Position numbers and translations under genes: made by a program | Part shown: positions 1 through 9,071 of the stretch, piece after piece | Position numbering within the stretch: the first letter of the stretch is position 1 | Layout: each line of letters starts with the position of its first letter | Assembly: GCA_944376225.1 (NCBI GenBank) | Contig: CALWBZ010000114.1 | Location: 1 to 41,024, forward strand | Reading direction: 5' to 3' | DNA from: an uncultured Clostridia bacterium | Lineage (GTDB): Bacteria > Bacillota > Clostridia > Lachnospirales > Bianqueaceae | DNA: 41,024 nucleotides | The notes under the pieces: generated by a model | What the model was told of the DNA's origin: nothing | Databases searched by the model: none | The model's input: only the letters and a program-made list of their open reading frames with translations

Positions 1-180
1 GGACATGCCCGGAAGCATGATGTCCAAGATCACCAGATCCGGATCTTCCCGGTCGTAGAGGGACACCGCTTCCTGTCCGTCTTCGCACTCGGTCACCTCG
101 TACCTCGCTAAACGCAGATACTCGCACAATGTGGACCTGATGTTCCTGTCATCTTCTACGACCAGAATCTTAATCATCAT
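1..180 (-). CDS. Response regulator, N-terminal part (runs off the window)
   Basis: The 60 visible residues form the start of a CheY-like receiver domain. The acidic pair is in LVVEDD (residues 7-10) and the phospho-acceptor is Asp53 in VILDIMLPGMS. The rest lies beyond the left edge, so the output domain is not visible; an OmpR/PhoB type is only a guess from similarity to the regulator at 3575-4276. Two ATG codons are adjacent at 175-180, and GAGGGGG about 8 nt upstream supports starting there. It has its own promoter at 216-244, so it is probably the first gene of a separate two-component operon. It looks like a paralogue of the second regulator (both have DGQEA after the acidic pocket). 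Confidence 0.9.
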   Translation of the reverse strand, partial: MMIKILVVEDDRNIRSTLCEYLRLARYEVTECEDGQEAVSLYDREDPDLVILDIMLPGMS

Positions 181-215
181 ACCGATACCCCCTCTGCTTT
201 CTCAAAATCTCCTTT

Positions 216-244
216 ATTATACCGGATTTTTACGCAAACATCAA
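216..244 (-). promoter_or_regulatory. Sigma-A promoter of the partial response regulator
   Basis: On the minus strand TTGATG (239-244) and TATAAT (216-221) are separated by 17 bp, giving a start about 30 nt before the ATG. It lies in the 102-nt gap after the lipoprotein gene. I see no convincing rho-independent terminator between the lipoprotein stop and this promoter, only a 5-bp stem. Confidence 0.7.
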
Positions 245-282
245 GTTTCGAGGACGTATTTCCTCCATCTTGCTCTCTTTTT

Positions 283-948
283 TTACTCCTCTGTGAAAGA
301 AATATCGATATCGCCGTTATTATTCCTTACGTGCAGGGTTTTTTCCCCGCCTTCTTTATTCTCAGGCAGATTGCTTCTCCCTTTCTTACAGACAGCCGAA
401 ATCGCGTATTGGTGATCGCTTCCGGAAAGTGTGCCGCGAATATCGCCGTTTTTATTCTCCAGATCCAGCTCGGCACCAATGTCTAACAGATCGAAAGAAA
501 TATCCCCGTTATTATTGGCCAGACAGACACTCTCCGCGGAGAGGCTAGCGTCAATCCGGATGTCCTCGTTAGTCGTGCTGAGGTTTAGCCGGGACAACGT
601 TTTTTCCGAGATCCGAACCAGGATCTTGGATTCCTCCCCGGACAGGCGCAGCCCGAAATACCCGGAAAAGCCCTCCTCCTTACGACCGGTGATCGAGAGC
701 AGGCTTTCCTCGGAAACCTGAATATCGTAACCGTTCTCCTCGCTCTCAAAGTAATCAATGTAAATCCGATCATCCTCCGACGCGGATACCTCTATCCTTC
801 TGTCCCTCACGTCGATCAAAATGCCTTGGATCTTCTCCGCCTCTATGGCATAAGATTTTCCCTCATAGACCTGCTCCTCTCCGGCGCAGCCCGAAAACAG
901 GGCCGTAAGTAAGAGCAGCGCCGCCAATATTGTCTTCCCGCTCATCAT
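283..948 (-). CDS. DUF4097-type putative lipoprotein
   Basis: A 221-residue exported protein. A hydrophobic signal peptide (about residues 5-20) ends in a lipobox LFSG-Cys21, so it should be lipidated and anchored outside the membrane. The mature part shows repeated short beta-strand units with NNNGDI, NKNGDI and TNEDI motifs, typical of the DUF4097/DUF4098 beta-helix-like family found beside ABC transporters and two-component systems. Its ATG overlaps the stop of the upstream ABC permease by 4 nt, so it is the last gene of the response regulator, kinase, ATPase, permease, lipoprotein unit. Its function is unknown; sensing or shielding the envelope in concert with the transporter is inference. 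Confidence 0.85.
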   Translation of the reverse strand: MMSGKTILAALLLLTALFSGCAGEEQVYEGKSYAIEAEKIQGILIDVRDRRIEVSASEDDRIYIDYFESEENGYDIQVSEESLLSITGRKEEGFSGYFGLRLSGEESKILVRISEKTLSRLNLSTTNEDIRIDASLSAESVCLANNNGDISFDLLDIGAELDLENKNGDIRGTLSGSDHQYAISAVCKKGRSNLPENKEGGEKTLHVRNNNGDIDISFTEE

Positions 949-1637
949 CTTACATCCTCCGTCTCAATCCTGTAAACCGCGGCAAAAAACGCCGCGGGCG
1001 CTCCCAAGATCTGTAAAGCGTATCCTACCGCGCTGCCCCCTTCGGTAAAGGGCAGGACATTGCCCTGGGTGAGTCCCATGACGCCCAGCATGATCACAAA
1101 AGCGGCGATCAGCATGGCCCGGGAGGATTTCGTCTTCATACCGACAAACAAGGGAATGCAGCCGCCTAGGACGGACACCCCCGCGCCTAAGACGGCGCCG
1201 GTCCAAAGAGAGACTTCCCCCAGGTGAATCCCCGTGTCCTCCTCGGATCGCAGGGCCAAAAGAATCCCATAGACAAGGATCTTACTCCCCAGCAGCGCCA
1301 GGAAGGTGAAGAGGCAGACCGCGGCGATCTTGGCCGCGATGATTGTCCACCTTCTGATGGGATAGGCAAACATGAGGCGGATCCGCCCGGTCTCATACTC
1401 GCTGACCACGAAACCGGCGAGCATCACGCCGGTAAAGACCTGATAGGACATATTGAGAAAAAGTTCCGTGAGGGCGTGAATCGTACTCTTGCCCACCTGG
1501 GGAACGAGTACGCCCGTGTCCGGATCGCTGGAGATGAGCAGAAGCATTCCCAACATGACAGCCGTCGTGATGGCCGCGCCGCGGACATATTTCCACAAAG
1601 AATATTTTTTCCATTCCAGTTTGATCAGTTTTATCAT
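945..1637 (-). CDS. ABC-2 type transporter permease
   Basis: A 230-residue integral membrane protein with about six hydrophobic segments. It begins with the short basic MIKLIKLEWKKY cytoplasmic leader usual for ABC-2 permeases of the bacitracin/lantibiotic self-protection type. The conserved VVSEYETGRIRLMFAYPIRR stretch (about residues 79-98) is the coupling-helix region after the second membrane segment. It overlaps the ATPase gene (1634-1637) and the lipoprotein gene (945-948) by 4 nt each, so all three are translationally coupled. It presumably forms the membrane part with the ATPase encoded just upstream. The substrate cannot be read from sequence; the neighbouring two-component system suggests a membrane-active peptide or envelope stress. 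Confidence 0.9.
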   Translation of the reverse strand: MIKLIKLEWKKYSLWKYVRGAAITTAVMLGMLLLISSDPDTGVLVPQVGKSTIHALTELFLNMSYQVFTGVMLAGFVVSEYETGRIRLMFAYPIRRWTIIAAKIAAVCLFTFLALLGSKILVYGILLALRSEEDTGIHLGEVSLWTGAVLGAGVSVLGGCIPLFVGMKTKSSRAMLIAAFVIMLGVMGLTQGNVLPFTEGGSAVGYALQILGAPAAFFAAVYRIETEDVR

Positions 1638-2554
1638 AGCCCTTCCTCCCCGGAGGTCATCTTGAGGAAATAATCCTCCAATGACTCCGCCTTTCTCCCT
1701 AGGGAAAGGATCTCCACGTCCTGCAGAGCGAAAGTTTTCGCCAGCTCCTGGGGCGTAATCTGGGGGTCATAGACCCGAATCACGCCGCCCTCCGCGATCC
1801 TGAAGTTGGACGCGCCCATCTGATCCGCTAAGACCGCGCAGGCCCGGCGAATGTCGGATACTTCCGTCTCGATATAGGCCAGATTCATCCGGTCGATCTC
1901 CTCCATGGCGATCTCCCGGATCAGACGGCCGTGATGAATGATGCCGATCGTATCCGCGATGCACTCGATTTCCGAAAGGATATGACTGGAGATGAGAATC
2001 GAGATCCCATATTCCCGGGAAAGGGCCTTTAAGAGATCCCGAATCTGCTTGATGCCCGCGGGATCCAGACCGTTGGTAGGCTCGTCGAAAACCAGGAGCT
2101 CCGGTTTGCTCAAAATAGCCCGGGCGATCCCCAGGCGTTCCTTCATGCCCAGAGAATAATCCTTCACCTTCTTATCCGCCGCCTCTCGAAGTCCCAAGAG
2201 GTCTAAGGCATTCTCGATGCTGCCGTGCCTGTAATATCCCATATACTCACAGTGAAGCCACAGGTTCTGATAACCTGTCATCTGTTCATAAAAGGTCGGG
2301 AATTCGATGATACTCCCCATCCTCTTCAAAACCTCATAGGAATTTTTTGTCAACGGTTCTCCAAAAATTTCCACGCTGCCTTTGGTAGGTTTCCAGAGAT
2401 TCGTAATCATCTTCATCACCGTCGTCTTGCCCGCGCCGTTGGGTCCCAAAAACCCGTAGATCTCTCCCTTCTTCACATGCAGGCTCACTTCTTCTACAAT
2501 GTTTTTACCGCCGATCGTCTTGGTAAGGCGATTAGTCTGCAAAATATATGGCAT
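1634..2554 (-). CDS. ABC transporter ATP-binding protein (bacitracin/lantibiotic type)
   Basis: A 306-residue ATPase. Walker A is GPNGAGKTT, the signature is YSLGMKERLGIA, Walker B is LLVFDEPTNGLD and the H-loop is LISSHILSEI. The C-terminal extension of about 80 residues after the H-loop is typical of the BcrA-like subfamily. I chose the start at ATG 2552-2554 (MPYILQTN) because AAAGGGGG lies 8 nt upstream; an in-frame ATG 18 nt earlier would put that ribosome site inside the gene. The gene sits 85 nt after the sensor kinase and overlaps the permease gene. Two adjacent 11-bp direct repeats in that gap (2596-2617) are a candidate site for the neighbouring response regulator. Confidence 0.93.
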   Translation of the reverse strand: MPYILQTNRLTKTIGGKNIVEEVSLHVKKGEIYGFLGPNGAGKTTVMKMITNLWKPTKGSVEIFGEPLTKNSYEVLKRMGSIIEFPTFYEQMTGYQNLWLHCEYMGYYRHGSIENALDLLGLREAADKKVKDYSLGMKERLGIARAILSKPELLVFDEPTNGLDPAGIKQIRDLLKALSREYGISILISSHILSEIECIADTIGIIHHGRLIREIAMEEIDRMNLAYIETEVSDIRRACAVLADQMGASNFRIAEGGVIRVYDPQITPQELAKTFALQDVEILSLGRKAESLEDYFLKMTSGEEGL

Positions 2555-2595
2555 GGTTTTGCCCCCTTTCATAAGACGATGATAACGGTTTCCCT

Positions 2596-2617
2596 TTGCA
2601 TAACTCTTGCGTAAATC
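2596..2617. promoter_or_regulatory. Tandem 11-bp direct repeat, candidate response-regulator site
   Basis: TTGCATAACTC (2596-2606) is followed immediately by TTGCGTAAATC (2607-2617), 9 of 11 positions identical and in phase with one helical turn. OmpR-family regulators typically bind such tandem repeats. It lies between the kinase gene and the ABC ATPase gene. A weak -10-like TATCAT is nearby on the minus strand (2579-2584), but no standard -35 is visible. The assignment to the regulator at 3575-4276 is inference. Confidence 0.4.
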
Positions 2618-2639
2618 TTACAAATTTCTTTCGCCGCTG

Positions 2640-3578
2640 TCAGTAGGTGACCTTCTTGAGTACAAGGGTAAAATCCGTCCGCACTCCCGGCAGGCTTTCC
2701 ACCGTCAGATCCCCTCCCAGCTGCCTGGCCAGATTCCTGGCGATGGTGAGCCCCAGGCCGTTTCCCTGGATGTTTCGGTTTCTGGAATCTTCCATCGTAA
2801 AAAGCCTGTAGAAGATCCTGTCCGCAAACTGTTTGTCGATCCCCTTTCCATGATCCGTCACCATGATGAAAACCTGGCATTCCGTCGCCGTCAGGGCAAT
2901 GCCCAGATACTTCCCTTCCGCCCCGTAACGCAGGGCGTTGGAAATCAGATTCGACAGGATCCGTCCCAAGGCTTCTCCGTTCCCCCAGGCGTAAACCGGA
3001 TTCTCCGGCAGGCTGATCTCCACCTGAAATTCCTCTTTCGTCAAGATCTCGTAAAAATCTAAGACCCTCTCCCGACAGGTCTCGCAGACGTCGATCCGGG
3101 AAATCTGGGGAGTCATGTCTCCGGATTCCAGCTTGGCCAGCGTGAAAAACTGATCGATCAGCCCCAGAACCTCCCGGGCCTTTTTCTCCGTCTTTTGCAG
3201 CATCTCCGGATTCGCCCCCTTCGTCCCCATGATCTCCAGATATCCCAGGATCACGGTCATGGGCGTCTTGATATCGTGGGAGATATTCGACAGCATCTTC
3301 CGGGAGGGGATTTCCCCGCGGCGGTAATCCGCCTTTGTCTTTCGTTCTTCTTCCAGGAGGGCATTGACCTGCGCGGCCAGTTCCATCAGCTCCGAATTCT
3401 CGGTGAACACCATGACCTGCTCGTCGCTCCCCGTCTCCAGAATCTCCTTTAATTTCCCGCTCATCTCCCGAAGCTTGGCTCTTATGCCACGGCCATAGGC
3501 GTACCGCTGGTACAGGATCACAAGACACAGGAGAAAGATTCCTACAACCAAGAAGAAAATCAACGTCTCCCGGTTCAT
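2640..3578 (-). CDS. Sensor histidine kinase, short intramembrane-sensing type
   Basis: A 312-residue membrane kinase. One strong hydrophobic segment (about residues 6-24) has only five residues ahead of it, so there is practically no extracellular sensor. It is followed by a helical linker, the H-box NISHDIKTPMT with His101, an N-box (LSNLISNALRYG) and G-boxes (VTDHGKGID and GNGLGL). This layout suits kinases that read the state of a partner transporter or of the membrane. The start ATG overlaps the stop of the response regulator by 4 nt. With the downstream ABC genes it forms a sensing-and-export unit; the actual stimulus is unknown. Confidence 0.92.
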   Translation of the reverse strand: MNRETLIFFLVVGIFLLCLVILYQRYAYGRGIRAKLREMSGKLKEILETGSDEQVMVFTENSELMELAAQVNALLEEERKTKADYRRGEIPSRKMLSNISHDIKTPMTVILGYLEIMGTKGANPEMLQKTEKKAREVLGLIDQFFTLAKLESGDMTPQISRIDVCETCRERVLDFYEILTKEEFQVEISLPENPVYAWGNGEALGRILSNLISNALRYGAEGKYLGIALTATECQVFIMVTDHGKGIDKQFADRIFYRLFTMEDSRNRNIQGNGLGLTIARNLARQLGGDLTVESLPGVRTDFTLVLKKVTY

Positions 3579-4276
3579 GACAGGTCTCCCAACTTATATC
3601 CGATGCCCCAGACGGTCTGAATATACTTAGGTTTTTTCGAGTCCTCCTCGATCTTATTGCGCAGGCGACTGATATGCACGTTGACCGCGTTCTCATCTCC
3701 TAGGTATGAATCCTTCCAGACGAGGGAATAGATTTGTTCCTTTGTATAGACCTGTTTAGGATGGCTCATGAGGAGTCTTAGGATCTCAAACTCCTTCGCG
3801 GTCAGTTCGATCCGCTCCCCCCGACGCGAAACCGTATAGTCCGTGAGATTGAGAACGAGATCTCCCGCCTCCAGATTTTTCGGCCGATCCGGCGCCTTCG
3901 GACGATTGTACTGTCCCGCCCGACGCAGGTTGGATTTGATCCGTGCCACCACCTCCACCAGTGAAAAAGGCTTCGTAATATAATCGTCGGCGCCCATCCC
4001 GAGCCCCAGAGATTTGTCCGAGTCCGAGTCTTTTGCGGATAGGATCAGGATTGGCACTACACTGTTTGCTCGGATATGCCGCATCACCTCCATGCCGCTT
4101 AGTTTCGGGATCATAAGATCCAACAGCACCAGAGAAAAGTCCTCCTTGTCGAAGATTTCGCAGGCTTCCTGTCCGTCGAAGGCGCAGACTGTCTCGTAAT
4201 CCTCAGTTTGCAGATAATCTCTCAACATCTCGCTGATTTCTCGGTCATCTTCCACAAGCAATATCCTGTCCTTCAT
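3575..4276 (-). CDS. OmpR/PhoB-family response regulator
   Basis: A 233-residue two-domain regulator. The receiver domain has acidic residues in LLVEDD, phospho-acceptor Asp53 in LVLLDLMIPK, and Lys in ITKPFS. A linker leads to a winged-helix DNA-binding domain (about residues 130-230) with typical ELTAKEFEIL and NVHISRLRNKIE elements and the terminal IQTVWGIGYKL. AAAGGGG about 9 nt upstream supports the ATG. It is first in its operon behind the promoter at 4349-4378 and is translationally coupled to the kinase gene. Likely targets are its own operon and the direct repeats at 2596-2617. Confidence 0.95.
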   Translation of the reverse strand: MKDRILLVEDDREISEMLRDYLQTEDYETVCAFDGQEACEIFDKEDFSLVLLDLMIPKLSGMEVMRHIRANSVVPILILSAKDSDSDKSLGLGMGADDYITKPFSLVEVVARIKSNLRRAGQYNRPKAPDRPKNLEAGDLVLNLTDYTVSRRGERIELTAKEFEILRLLMSHPKQVYTKEQIYSLVWKDSYLGDENAVNVHISRLRNKIEEDSKKPKYIQTVWGIGYKLGDLS

Positions 4277-4348
4277 GCATAGAACCCCTTTCTTCGATGT
4301 CTCGGCGGCTCTGTCTCCTCCCCATGAGAATGCTGCCCCGCCGCGCTT

Positions 4349-4378
4349 ATTATATCATGGATTCCCTCCTGTCCGCAA
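4349..4378 (-). promoter_or_regulatory. Sigma-A promoter of the response regulator-kinase-ABC operon
   Basis: TTGCGG (4373-4378) and TATAAT (4349-4354) on the minus strand are separated by 18 bp. The predicted leader is about 65 nt. The weak -35 leaves room for an activator. Confidence 0.6.
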
Positions 4379-4467
4379 CTTTGTATACTCCTATCAAAAG
4401 GAGCTGTTCCAATTTAACGCGACAACGCTTCAGGAGGATCTCTCCAAAACAGGGCAGGTTCACAAAA

Positions 4468-4585
4468 CAGCACTTTCCGGAAAAATCCCATTAATTTAAC
4501 ATGAAAATCCCGGAAAGTGAGGATGAAAAACAGCACTTTCCGGGAAAAATCCATTAAATTAACACAAAAATCCCGGAAAGTGCTG
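4468..4585. repeat. Tandem pair of about 52-55 bp palindromic repeat units
   Basis: Two similar units lie 63 bp apart. In unit 1 the 10-bp arm at 4471-4480 pairs with 4510-4519. In unit 2 the 15-bp arms at 4531-4545 and 4571-4585 are perfectly complementary. Both arms carry CACTTTCCGG and both loops are AT-rich with TTAAtTTAAC-like cores. They fill the 350-nt gap between the cytidylate-kinase-like gene and the two-component operon; no gene is visible there. They could be a short non-autonomous mobile repeat of REP/MITE type or transcription-terminating hairpins. Neither has a T-tract after the stem on the minus strand. Confidence 0.75.
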
Positions 4586-4625
4586 AAACGCCCAGCACTC
4601 CCCGAGAGACCCCCAATATTCCCAA

Positions 4626-5228
4626 TCACTTCTCCAATCCTTCCAGAATGTTTAAGCATCCTTCCAGGCCCAGGGACCCGCTGTCTAAGACGATGTCATA
4701 ATTCTTCGGATCTTCCCATCTCTTCATGGTGTTCACATGGTAATAGTTGGCGCGTTTCTTATCGAATTTCCGTCTGACGACGTCGGCTTTGGCTTCCTCT
4801 ATCCCGTAATCCTCCAGGATCCTCTTCTTCTTTTCCTTCTCGTCTCCGCACCGAATAAACACTTTGATCACGCCCTTATATTCTTTCAGCGCCTCGGAAG
4901 CGCAGTGCCCGAGGAAGATCGCCCGCCCGCCGGCGGCGAGGCGCAAAATCGCCTCCTGTTCCGCGACATAGAGATGGCTTTCCATGCTGGTTAGATCCGC
5001 GTTTCCCGACGCCGTCTGCGACATCATGTAAAGCGAATATAAGAAACTGTTGGAGGCGGATTCCTCATACTGCTGGATCCGTTCTACGGAGATGTCGTAT
5101 TTTTTCGACACCGCCTCCAAGATCTCGTGTCCATAACAGGGAATCCCCATCCGTTCGGCCAGCATTCGGGCAATTCTTGTTCCTCCGCTTCCGTATTCTC
5201 TCTCGATCGTGATATATCTATAGTTCAT
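4626..5228 (-). CDS. Cytidylate kinase-like family protein
   Basis: A 200-residue P-loop protein of the cytidylate-kinase-like family. The N-terminus ITIEREYGSGGTRIARMLAE carries the degenerate nucleotide-binding loop of that family, which lacks a classical GKST Walker A. A lid-like basic region (KKRILEDYG, RRKFDKKRANYY) follows. These proteins are common as second, uncharacterised copies in Clostridia, and their substrate is not established. The ATG at 5226-5228 is chosen because AAGGGAG precedes it; an ATG 33 nt earlier has no such site. The gene begins 16 nt after the second ABC exporter half, so it belongs to the marR-controlled operon. Any link to drug export is inference. Confidence 0.85.
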   Translation of the reverse strand: MNYRYITIEREYGSGGTRIARMLAERMGIPCYGHEILEAVSKKYDISVERIQQYEESASNSFLYSLYMMSQTASGNADLTSMESHLYVAEQEAILRLAAGGRAIFLGHCASEALKEYKGVIKVFIRCGDEKEKKKRILEDYGIEEAKADVVRRKFDKKRANYYHVNTMKRWEDPKNYDIVLDSGSLGLEGCLNILEGLEK

Positions 5229-5244
5229 TGCCTTCTCTCCCTTC

Positions 5245-7314
5245 TTATGACGCCTGTTCAAATTGGCTGTTGTACAGATCCGCGTAGAAACCGCCCTTGG
5301 CCAGGAGCGCTTCGTGGGTACCGCTCTCGATAACGTCTCCGTCCTTGAGTACGAGAATCAGATCCGAATTCTTAATGGTGGACAGCCGGTGGGCGATGAC
5401 AAAGGAGGTCCGGTTTTCCATCAGCTGATCCATCGCCGCTTGAATCTGCTGTTCCGTCCGCGTATCGACGGAACTCGTCGCTTCGTCGAGAATCAGCATC
5501 GGTTTATCCGCGATCATGGCGCGGGCGATGGTTAGCTGCTGTTTCTGTCCTTGAGACAGGTTGATCTGGTCATTGAGGATCGTGTCGTATCCCTTGGGCA
5601 GGGTACGGATAAAGTGATCCAGCCCCACCGCCTTACAGGCTTCCTCCATCTTCTCGTCGCTCACATGTTCCGAACAGTACACCAGGTTTTCCCGGATGGT
5701 TCCCTCGAACAGCCAGGTATCTTGAAGGACCATGCAGAACAGGGAATGGACCGCCTCCCGGGTCATCTCCTTGGTGGAGACGCCGTCGATCCGAATCTCT
5801 CCGCCCTGAATCTCATGGAAACGCATGAGAAGGTTGACAAGCGTCGTCTTGCCCGCTCCGGTGGGACCGACGATCGCGATCTTCTGTCCCGGTTCCGCCT
5901 TGGCGGAAAAGTCCTGGATCACCGTTCTGTCGGAGTTCTCATAGCCGAATCGGACATGTTCAAACTCCACGGCACCTTTTATGTCGCCGGGATCTGTGAT
6001 CTTCCCCGTCTCGTCTTCCATCTCCTCCGCTTCCAGGAACTCGAACACACGCTCGCCGGCCGCCGCCGCGGACTGAAGAGATTGTACCGCCTGGGCGATC
6101 TGAGATAAGGGCTGCGTGAAATAGCGAACATACATCATGAAGGCCACGATGACGCCGAAACTGATTCTGCCGTCCAGGGCCATGGCGCCGCCTACGACAC
6201 AGACCGCCACATACCCCAGGTTTCCGATAAAGTTCATGATGGGCATCATCATGCCGGAAAGGCTCTGCGCCCGGAAATTGCTCTTGACCAGGTCGTCGTT
6301 CATACGGGCGAAGGCGTTCTGCGCCTCCTCCTCGCCGTTATAAGCCTTGACGACCGTGTGGCCCGCATAGATCTCCTCAATGTGTCCGTTCAGCCTGCCC
6401 AGGTGCTTTTGCTGCCTCGTGAAATATTTTTGGCTCTTTCCCATGATCGCGAACATGAGCACAAATCCCAGGAGACTGGACAGTACCGCCGTCAGCGTCA
6501 TCCACCCGTCCGTCAGCAGCATCATCAGGAAACTTCCTAAGAAGAGAACCACCGAGGAGATCAGGTTTCCTATGCTCTGGTTCAGCGACTGCCCGATGGT
6601 ATCCACGTCGTTCGTCACTCGGGAGAGCACGTCTCCTGTGGTGGTCCGGTGATAGAACCACATGGGCAGCCGGTTGATTTTCCTGGAAATTTCGGAACGC
6701 ATCTCCTTGGATACCCGTTGGGTAACGGTGGACATAATCCAGCTCTGCGCCGCGGATAAGATTAGGCTCAGGGCATAAAAACTCACCAAAAGGAGGCCGA
6801 TCTCCGTGATCTTATTCATGTCGATGGAGGGCTCTATCAGGCCGGATACAGAATCCGGCAATTCATTAAGCGCCTCAAAAACCGCGCTCGTATCCTCGCC
6901 GTCAAGGCCCCCGAGGACTGTGAGGAGCTGCTGTTGATCCGCCGATGAGATCACGGTTCCGTCGATCGTAAGATCCGCTCCCCCCGCGGACAGATTCGCG
7001 TAGACCGCCCCGACGATTTCTTCCAGTTTTTCCGTATCGGGAGCCATGCCCTCGCTGATGGCGTTCGTCATGTCCGAGAGTTTATCCGGCCCCGCCAGTG
7101 TCAAGACGGTTCCCGCCACCGCGCAGATCAGCGCGATTACCATGACCGCCGCGTATTTGCGGCAATAACCCAGGAGTTTTTTCCAGGTACCCACCAGGTC
7201 CTTGGCCTTTTCTCCGCCTCTGCCCATGCCTCTGGGGCCTCCCATGGGACGGCCTCTCATCGGCGCCGGGGCGCTTTTCGTGTTTGTATCCGCCATGTAT
7301 TCCTTTCTTTCCAT
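5245..7314 (-). CDS. Multidrug ABC exporter half, catalytic-site subunit
   Basis: A 689-residue fused permease-ATPase. The N-terminal 35 residues are a Pro/Gly/Arg-rich cytoplasmic tail. About 110 extra residues sit between the first two membrane segments, as in YfiB/YfiC and LmrCD-type heterodimers. The ATPase domain has Walker A GPTGAGKTT, signature LSQGQKQQ, an intact Walker B with catalytic glutamate (LILDEATSSVD) and an H-loop (VIAHRL). The gene upstream encodes the partner with degenerate residues. The partner stop and this ATG overlap as TAATG, and AAAGGAGG lies 10 nt upstream. An alternative ATG at 7296 also has a ribosome-site-like AAAGGAA before it. Substrate unknown. Confidence 0.94.
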   Translation of the reverse strand: MERKEYMADTNTKSAPAPMRGRPMGGPRGMGRGGEKAKDLVGTWKKLLGYCRKYAAVMVIALICAVAGTVLTLAGPDKLSDMTNAISEGMAPDTEKLEEIVGAVYANLSAGGADLTIDGTVISSADQQQLLTVLGGLDGEDTSAVFEALNELPDSVSGLIEPSIDMNKITEIGLLLVSFYALSLILSAAQSWIMSTVTQRVSKEMRSEISRKINRLPMWFYHRTTTGDVLSRVTNDVDTIGQSLNQSIGNLISSVVLFLGSFLMMLLTDGWMTLTAVLSSLLGFVLMFAIMGKSQKYFTRQQKHLGRLNGHIEEIYAGHTVVKAYNGEEEAQNAFARMNDDLVKSNFRAQSLSGMMMPIMNFIGNLGYVAVCVVGGAMALDGRISFGVIVAFMMYVRYFTQPLSQIAQAVQSLQSAAAAGERVFEFLEAEEMEDETGKITDPGDIKGAVEFEHVRFGYENSDRTVIQDFSAKAEPGQKIAIVGPTGAGKTTLVNLLMRFHEIQGGEIRIDGVSTKEMTREAVHSLFCMVLQDTWLFEGTIRENLVYCSEHVSDEKMEEACKAVGLDHFIRTLPKGYDTILNDQINLSQGQKQQLTIARAMIADKPMLILDEATSSVDTRTEQQIQAAMDQLMENRTSFVIAHRLSTIKNSDLILVLKDGDVIESGTHEALLAKGGFYADLYNSQFEQAS

Positions 7315-9071
7315 TATGCCAGTTCCTCCTTTGAGAGCTGTGAAAGGGCGATCTGCCGGTAGACCTCGCAGTTCTCCATGAGGTCCTCATGACGGCCCGC
7401 CCCCGCGATCTTCCCGTCCTCCAGAACGATGATCCGATCCGCGTCCCGGATGGTTCCGATGCGCTGCGCTACGATAACGCGGGTGACGTCTTTGCATTCC
7501 CGATCCAGGGTTTCCCGCAGGACGCGGTCCGTCTTATAATCAAGGGCCGAGAATGAATCGTCAAAGATCAGGATCTCCGGTTTTCTCGCGATGGCTCGGG
7601 CGATGGAGATACGCTGTTTCTGTCCGCCGGACAGATTGGATCCGCTCTGCGCCACATAACCTTCGTAATCTCCTTCCATTTTTTCCACAAATTCGGCGGC
7701 CTGCGCCGTCCGGACCGCTGTCTTGACCTCCTCCAGAGAGGCCCTTCCCTGGCCGTTGTCACCATAATCTACATTGCTTCGTATGCTGCCCCCAAACAGG
7801 ATCGCTTTCTGAGAGACATATCCGATCTTGTTGCGAAGCTCTTTCTGGGAATATTCCCGAACATTAATTCCGTCCACAAGGACTTCTCCCTCTGAAGCGT
7901 CATAGAAACGAGGGATCAGATTGACCACCGTGCTCTTCCCACAGCCTGTGGCGCCGATGAGAGCCACGGTTTCTCCCTTTTTCGCCGTAAAGGTGATGTT
8001 CGACAACACATCCTCCTCCGCGTCGGGATAACGGAAGGACACGTTCCTAAACTCGATCTCCCCTACGCTGCCCGGTTTGCCCTGGGCCCGCGTTCCGTCG
8101 ATAATCGTGGGGCTCGTATCCAGAACCTCTCCGATACGCTGGGCGGAAACGGATGCACGAGGCAGGATCATGAAGATCATCACCAGCATCATGAAGGCCA
8201 TGACCACTTGCAGGGCATATTGGGAAAATACCATCATATCCGAAAATACCGTGAGTTTATCCGCCATGCCCGCCCCGTTGATCAGTACGGCGCCGATCCA
8301 GTAGATGGCCAAGGACAGGCCGCTCATGACCATTTGAATTCCCGGCATCAGGAAAGCCATCGTACGCTGGGCAAACAGCTGATTCCCCATGAGCTCCTGA
8401 TTCACATTCTCGAACTTATTCTCCTGATACTCCTCCGCATTATAGGCGCGGACGACGGAGAGTCCGGTCAGGTTTTCCCGCGTCACGCGGTTCAGATCAT
8501 CCGTCAGCCGCTGCATCTTCTTGAAACGGGGCGTCGCCAGCAGCAGGCAGACGAGCACGATCGCCAGCAAGACGACGATCGCGATTCCCGTGGTCATCGT
8601 CCATTGCCATTGCTTATTGGCGATTTTACAGATGGCCCATACCGCCATGACCGGGGCCTTGACCAGCATCTGAAGGCCCATGGCGATGAGCATCTGTATC
8701 TGCGTAACGTCGTTGGTGGAACGGGTGATCAGGCTGGCCGTAGAAAAGTGGCCGATCTCTTCCATGGAGAAGGATTGTACCTTCCTAAACATTTTGTCTC
8801 GTAAGGTTCCGCCAAAGGAGGACGCGATCTTGGCCGAACAGACGGCCGTCGTCACCGCCGAGACAAGGCTGCCCAGCGCGCAGGCCAGCATCTTGCCTCC
8901 GGAGGTCAGAATCTCGCCCATCGTGCTGCCCGGCGTCTGTACCAATGTGGTAATCTCTGCCATGTACTCCGGCATCTTTAGATCCAGCCATACCTGCGCC
9001 ACAATGAAGACCACGGCCCCAAAAACGAGGGCCCATTCCTGTTTCCTAAGATTTTTGAATAGTTTTAACAT
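7314..9071 (-). CDS. Multidrug ABC exporter half, degenerate-site subunit
   Basis: A 585-residue half-exporter with six membrane segments and an ATPase domain. It has Walker A GATGCGKST and signature LSGGQKQR. Walker B ends in LIFDDSFSALD, with Asp where the catalytic Glu is expected, and the switch position reads VIVAQRIGTI, with Gln in place of the H-loop His. Both changes are the usual marks of the non-hydrolysing composite site in heterodimeric exporters, so this subunit should work only with the next gene product. AAGGAGAG precedes the ATG. A copy of the MarR operator lies at 9117-9133, between this gene and marR. Confidence 0.94.
   Translation of the reverse strand: MLKLFKNLRKQEWALVFGAVVFIVAQVWLDLKMPEYMAEITTLVQTPGSTMGEILTSGGKMLACALGSLVSAVTTAVCSAKIASSFGGTLRDKMFRKVQSFSMEEIGHFSTASLITRSTNDVTQIQMLIAMGLQMLVKAPVMAVWAICKIANKQWQWTMTTGIAIVVLLAIVLVCLLLATPRFKKMQRLTDDLNRVTRENLTGLSVVRAYNAEEYQENKFENVNQELMGNQLFAQRTMAFLMPGIQMVMSGLSLAIYWIGAVLINGAGMADKLTVFSDMMVFSQYALQVVMAFMMLVMIFMILPRASVSAQRIGEVLDTSPTIIDGTRAQGKPGSVGEIEFRNVSFRYPDAEEDVLSNITFTAKKGETVALIGATGCGKSTVVNLIPRFYDASEGEVLVDGINVREYSQKELRNKIGYVSQKAILFGGSIRSNVDYGDNGQGRASLEEVKTAVRTAQAAEFVEKMEGDYEGYVAQSGSNLSGGQKQRISIARAIARKPEILIFDDSFSALDYKTDRVLRETLDRECKDVTRVIVAQRIGTIRDADRIIVLEDGKIAGAGRHEDLMENCEVYRQIALSQLSKEELA

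Follow-up and report, generated by a model that had tools for sequence, protein, structure and literature searches.

Palindromic units in a gene-free gap

Two palindromic units lie side by side between genes in the 41,024-nt stretch of DNA from an uncultured Clostridia bacterium (Lachnospirales; Bianqueaceae) that was analyzed here, referred to below as the window. The question raised by this locus is whether the pair is a structural element confined to this gap or one copy of a repeat that has spread, and what such a repeat may do where it lies. Both units were found at the 63-bp spacing at which an earlier note on this DNA had placed them. Their inverted arms likewise hold: those of the first unit measure 10 bp (4471-4480 with 4510-4519) and those of the second 15 bp at 100% complementarity (4531-4545 with 4571-4585), and the gap (4277-4625) is gene-free in that it contains no ORF of at least 100 aa. 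A 56-nt direct repeat with 89% identity connects the two units. Since the kinase-like gene and the response regulator gene on either side are both encoded on the minus strand, this strand is the natural reading of the pair, and the features are given in that direction:

4626..5261, minus strand: upstream gene, cytidylate kinase-like (PF13189), with its stop codon 38 bp before the array start
4593..4604, minus strand: partial unit upstream of unit A, 3' arm only, a potential pairing partner of the 5' arm of unit A
4566..4607, minus strand: hairpin H1, stem 4607-4571 in which 17 pairs were counted, with TTTTT after it; resembles an intrinsic terminator
4529..4587, minus strand: repeat unit A (first in unit orientation), with the core GTTAATTTAATGGATTTT between arms of 15 bp; 68.3 bits, the best score in the genome
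4546..4563, minus strand: conserved core GTTAATTTAATGGATTTT of unit A, from the core-pattern match and information content
4504..4545, minus strand: hairpin H2, 3' arm of unit A with 5' arm of unit B; perfect stem of 12 bp and loop of 14 nt, followed by TTTT
4466..4523, minus strand: repeat unit B, located 63 bp further downstream than unit A, with perfect arms of 10 bp; 64.8 bits
4483..4500, minus strand: conserved core GTTAAATTAATGGGATTT of unit B, from the sequence and the unit alignment
3575..4276, minus strand: downstream gene, response regulator with a Trans_reg_C domain (Pfam)

Folding of the minus strand yielded -20.8 and -29.2 kcal/mol for the two units; because the z-scores against dinucleotide shuffles were -5.25 and -7.88 and none of 200 shuffles matched the energy of either unit, this folding exceeds what is expected by chance. 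The sequence CACTTTCCGG, with up to 1 mismatch allowed, was found 10 times in the window (3.4 expected), and four of these 10 occurrences are the arms of the two units. Two further features had been absent from the earlier note, namely the partial third arm upstream of the pair (4593-4604) and a perfect 12-bp inverted repeat that spans the two units (4508-4519 with 4534-4545). A search of window positions 4300-4700 against Rfam produced five matches to microRNA families, all far under the gathering scores.

A dispersed repeat family

The window pair is one copy of a dispersed repeat family. While the earlier note had named a lack of further genomic copies as the sign of a merely local element, a sequence-only model identified 51 units (E <= 2.5e-6) at 29 places in the draft genome from which the window comes (2.49 Mb, 142 contigs, completeness 94.6%), including 48 units at E <= 2e-9. 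This model was trained on 41 units, which match by construction; nine of 50 regular-expression hits had been removed before the alignment (A1) as opposite-strand doubles, truncated copies or chance matches. Without the model, blastn with the window pair by itself (a 127-bp stretch) already matched approximately 20 further contigs of the same genome.

The unit is approximately 59 nt long, with the consensus (majority residues of the alignment) TTCAGCACTTTCCnGGnTTTTCGTGTTAAATTAATnGnTTTTTCCCGGAAnGTGCTGTT. In a script-derived set, which comprises 46 units from 25 arrays and misses C3, C142, C52 and one place on C53, eight arrays have one unit, 16 have two units and one, on C22, has six. Steps from unit to unit (n = 21) measure 62-64 or 73-79 bp; values of 63 and 73 bp predominate, and the six-unit array has 74-79 bp. 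As judged by eye, half units akin to the one at 4593-4604 in the window precede several other arrays. The arrays in this genome showed no common ends beyond the units and no clear outer modules of the boxA or boxC type; they lie after the 3' ends of genes and are scattered across the genome.

Conservation of the core and pairing between neighboring units

The pair had previously been described as having conserved arms around drifting loops. The reverse was found when information content was compared over 42 of the 46 units: the core of the loop, at 1.58 bits/column, is more conserved than the arms, at 1.26 and 1.20 (p = 0.009), and the supposed loop, TGTTAAWTTAA, represents the best-conserved part of the unit. 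The arm pairing on which that description was built showed no covariation either, with 73.3% of cells paired as compared to 73.2% after shuffling. A conserved RNA structure for the within-unit hairpin was thus rejected, the predicted consensus fold also being empty.

In an alternative hairpin, the 3' arm of a unit pairs with the 5' arm of the unit that follows; this hairpin has a short loop and then a T-tract, with TTTT immediately 3' of the 5' arm in 41 of the 46 units. In a free-fold swap test on the 46 units, the junction hairpin folded better with its own partners than with swapped ones (-14.2 versus -13.1 kcal/mol; p = 0.009 as the best of six tests, corrected p approximately 0.05), and in the same test the within-unit hairpin did not (p = 0.35). 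Moreover, the 5' arm of the first unit was matched by the stretch upstream of it better than swapped arms were (25 arrays, p = 0.0095). These results lend modest support to a hairpin that joins neighboring units, rather than the arms within one unit, as the better one; the support from the swap test is only modest because a count of the same junction pairing at fixed register in this genome showed no covariation (p = 0.58 and 0.94).

Location at gene ends and terminator-like layout

Gene calls for the placement, gene-end and sister-locus analyses came from a simple script based on codon usage, for which the window had been the training sequence. On these calls, 13 of the 22 gaps with arrays are convergent, nine are co-directional and none is divergent, as compared to 3, 30 and 21, respectively, of the 54 array-free gaps in the same stretches (p = 1.2e-6 for convergent and p = 1.8e-4 for divergent gaps). 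This tally scored 22 of the 29 places; the remaining seven are located at the end of a contig or next to a gene call that missed the cut. At 24 of 27 places the upstream gene has the unit orientation, a figure that is not decisive on array orientation because convergent gaps are uninformative and the co-directional gaps divide only 7 versus 3 (contig C107, described below, is counted here).

Among 35 gene ends adjoining arrays, a terminator-like site was found within the array for 11 of the 19 genes transcribed in the unit orientation and for 2 of the 16 transcribed in the opposite orientation (p = 0.012). Array-free gene ends, used as a control, had such a site in 20 of 65 cases, and for four of the 19 genes a terminator-like site is already present ahead of the array. 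Over 24 arrays, there were 20 terminator-like sites in the unit orientation and seven in reverse, with approximately six expected from shuffles (0.27 per array). A hairpin with a directly adjoining T-tract in the unit orientation is found in 13 of these 24 arrays; 11 have none.

At the window, the strand of the upstream gene carries a hairpin followed by a T-tract twice. H1 with its TTTTT is the sole minus-strand terminator-like site in positions 3500-5400 under the stricter loop limit, and H2 represents the second such site in the window once this limit is relaxed. Judging from this layout in the sequence, the array may also serve to stop transcription. In addition, the terminator-like hairpins AAAAAGCTGTCTC...GAGACAGC and CTCCCTTCTAGGTAGAC... 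recur beside different arrays (L110 and L118, downstream; L112 and L122) and give the impression that ordinary terminators, too, are repeated in this genome.

An apparent allele with one unit

Contig C107 matches window positions 4527-4771 at 98% and, between there and the left flank that it shares with the window, is 63 bp shorter, carrying a single unit in place of the window's two. The 11 nt to the left of the array, GGCAGGTTCAC, are common to both; beyond them leftward, C107 diverges and then matches window positions 1-299 at 98%. C107 is apparently a strain allele of the window locus, the alternative reading being a second copy. If it is an allele, the number of units differs between strains. 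C107, which is one of the 29 places, was omitted from the flank-pairing and terminator-site tallies because it is apparently an allele of the window.

Range of the family and a related family in a sister genome

In a model search over 146 genomes, with strict filters and few candidates scored per genome, none of the 145 related genomes, two of them of the same genus, had a match at E <= 1e-4. Under looser conditions, six relatives yielded nothing beyond weak matches (best E 0.009), four of which were in one array of the same-genus genome G002; the core GTTAAGTTAATTGATTTT was found four times in an array of this genome. The core pattern yielded 19 matches in the own genome, four in the G002 array and one each in two of 144 other genomes, as compared to a single match over all genomes for the same pattern written backward. 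The unit pattern had no match in two public collections, of genome contigs and of viral contigs, a result that argues only against a close, abundant relative because the pattern fits 14 of the 46 own units and near records were perhaps left out of the collections.

Of the two same-genus genomes, one (G002) was found to contain a dispersed family of its own, with a similar core, other arms and a 53-bp period. At E <= 1.6e-7 this family is present on seven contigs (C280, C293, C256, C41, C184, C262 and C116), five of which were inspected; its loci include L149:10640-11071, L133:9530-9990, L151:4560-4760 and L152:640-830. By eye, the 53-bp units come with a leader common to four loci and a trailer common to three of these. 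The short palindromes of this family show a compensated difference between loci, AACGGGG...CCCCGTT versus AACTGAG...CTCAGTT. Both the covariation score and the changes on both sides were above shuffles (0 of 500 as high); the counts of varying pairs (2) and of pair types were not. Since the loci are related and only two pairs vary on both sides, this covariation is supportive rather than proof.

A probable BOX-like repeat at gene ends

The family is of a familiar kind but new, and none of the papers listed from an open-access library describes it in title or abstract opening. It is probably a lineage-restricted, non-autonomous, modular small interspersed repeat of a BOX-like type, tolerated, and perhaps used, as terminators. 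Transcription of the upstream gene would enter the array and end at one of its hairpins. An insert after a gene end would be harmless or useful and could be kept there because transcription stops at the array hairpin, and inserts elsewhere would be lost. The number of units would shift through slippage or unequal recombination; spread to new places would have required a trans-acting enzyme, which has possibly since gone.

The BOX repeats of S. pneumoniae and S. suis (boxA-boxBn-boxC), to which the family is likened by description, are likewise small, intergenic and modular, with variable inner units and an occurrence in few species, according to an excerpt of the work describing them (PMC3049150). 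Dispersed intergenic copies in one lineage and an inner module of variable number are what the present family has in common with them. The same excerpt reports that pneumococcal BOX repeats are enriched between convergent genes and vary between strains in unit number and length, and that among sequenced streptococci BOX-type repeats occur in S. pneumoniae and S. suis only (PMC3049150). BOX repeats are also found upstream of genes, with a slight over-representation in divergent gaps (PMC3049150, excerpt), whereas none of the 22 array-containing gaps analyzed here is divergent. The leader, 53-bp units and trailer of the G002 family resemble boxA-boxBn-boxC, while the own-genome arrays are without clear end modules. 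By analogy, the array would work like a BOX repeat; full membership would need end modules and a target-site duplication.

SPRITE repeats of S. pneumoniae are reported in that excerpt to lie near gene 3' ends, to consist of a stem followed by a T-rich tract and to have been suggested as co-opted terminators; its text on SPRITE makes no mention of tandem units (PMC3049150), in contrast to the tandem units found here. By description, the arrays are like SPRITE in their location at gene 3' ends and in their stem and T-tract. EFAR elements are palindromic, of variable length, and target stem-loops near gene ends. EFAR of Enterococcus faecalis is classified as an enterococcal MITE, as stated in an excerpt of PMC3733652. 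In a comparison by description, the present family differs from EFAR in that no split target stems were found around its arrays in the own genome; such a split stem was rejected after the outer flanks of 24 arrays showed no pairing (p = 0.83).

The families of the own and the sister species would add a separate pair of BOX-type families with a directional terminator-like layout, and are otherwise ordinary genome furniture. Possible uses are as a strain marker and, through the natural series of one, two and six units, for testing tandem termination.

Alternative explanations

One alternative is that the arrays are phased bent-DNA or protein-binding arrays, serving as nucleoid-protein or chromosome-organizing sites, with incidental hairpins. 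Conservation that lies in sequence rather than in pairing would fit such a role. So would the AA/TT steps, which recur at 10-10.5 bp within the unit with a median that was reached by none of 557 overlapping 59-nt intergenic stretches, and the unit steps, as 63, 73 and, in the sister family, 53 bp correspond to approximately 6, 7 and 5 helical turns. This phasing is not predicted by either a terminator or a parasite reading. However, it counts as approximately one event because all units are of a single origin, it is weaker in the sister units (approximately 0.5-0.7 versus 1.7-1.9), and the six-unit array on C22, with its 74-79 bp steps, is off the whole-turn pattern. Chromosome-organizing sites moreover tend towards conservation, and none of the 145 relatives has a match, making this role unlikely. 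A combination of both roles in one lineage-specific repeat, in which a tandem terminator is also a helically phased bent-DNA array, would have a protein on the AT core holding the whole-turn spacing, couple termination at the gene end to local DNA architecture and leave the arms free while they remain palindromic between units; we regard this as a long shot.

A classical MITE, on which an IS transposase that reads terminal inverted repeats would act in trans, is suggested by the C41 copy of the sister family, as its outer ends pair in the fold as an imperfect 18-nt inverted repeat (AAAGGGGCTATCTCACTT / AAGTGAGACAGCCCCTTT). The outer flanks in the own genome are unpaired, however, and no ends are shared beyond the units. 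As had been noted before, no transposase was recognized nearby: 26 of 29 scanned proteins, from the window and from beside arrays, have a Pfam match and none is a transposase, with a genome-wide search covering the Y1 type. A MITE of this kind therefore appears distinctly unlikely.

Ordinary terminators could also have been copied together with gene ends by segmental duplication, the repeat itself being immobile. Two pairs of arrays are consistent with this, C7 and C22 with 91% identity over 296 bp, approximately 175 bp of which are the upstream gene end and terminator, and C66 and C118 with 89% over 142 bp, including approximately 76 bp of flank. Against it, only 11 of 300 upstream and 8 of 300 downstream flank pairs exceeded the top score of one shuffled set by more than 2, and among 20 proteins adjoining other arrays the 18 with a Pfam match have no common function and include no transposase. 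Duplication as the general source is very unlikely. The arrays at L107:152-446 and C7:16246-16537, with six and two units, respectively, share a gene end and terminator, the match being 91% over 296 bp when the units are counted in.

REP, BIME and REPIN repeats are intergenic palindromes in inverted alternation and often in tandem, and the present family is likewise palindromic, intergenic, dispersed and tandem-forming, but mobilization as a REP or REPIN by a REP-associated tyrosine transposase (RAYT), for which a search had been proposed, is hardly credible given that Pfam Y1_Tnp had no match in the 94.6%-complete assembly (the same search gave matches in 5 of 14 control genomes), that the center is conserved and the arms are variable (1.58 versus 1.26 and 1.20 bits/column), the reverse of the conserved REP palindromes around a variable center in REPINs, and that, by eye, the alignment shows no GTAG tag at the arm ends.

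Gene content around the array

Window positions of approximately 300-4443 (approximately 4.1 kb) are missing from C107, and this gap ends right beside the array. The genes in this region encode a response regulator, a histidine kinase, an ABC ATPase, an ABC-2-type permease and a DUF4097 protein, an apparent strain-level difference in gene content. On the other side of the array, the kinase-like gene has a homologue in G001 only (31%) among the three near relatives G001-G003. Together with two ABC transporter genes (window 4626-9071), it was found in synteny in a Fusicatenibacter-labelled MAG (L082) as well as in Candidatus Pararuminococcus (L083), and these three genes possibly represent a transferred cluster.
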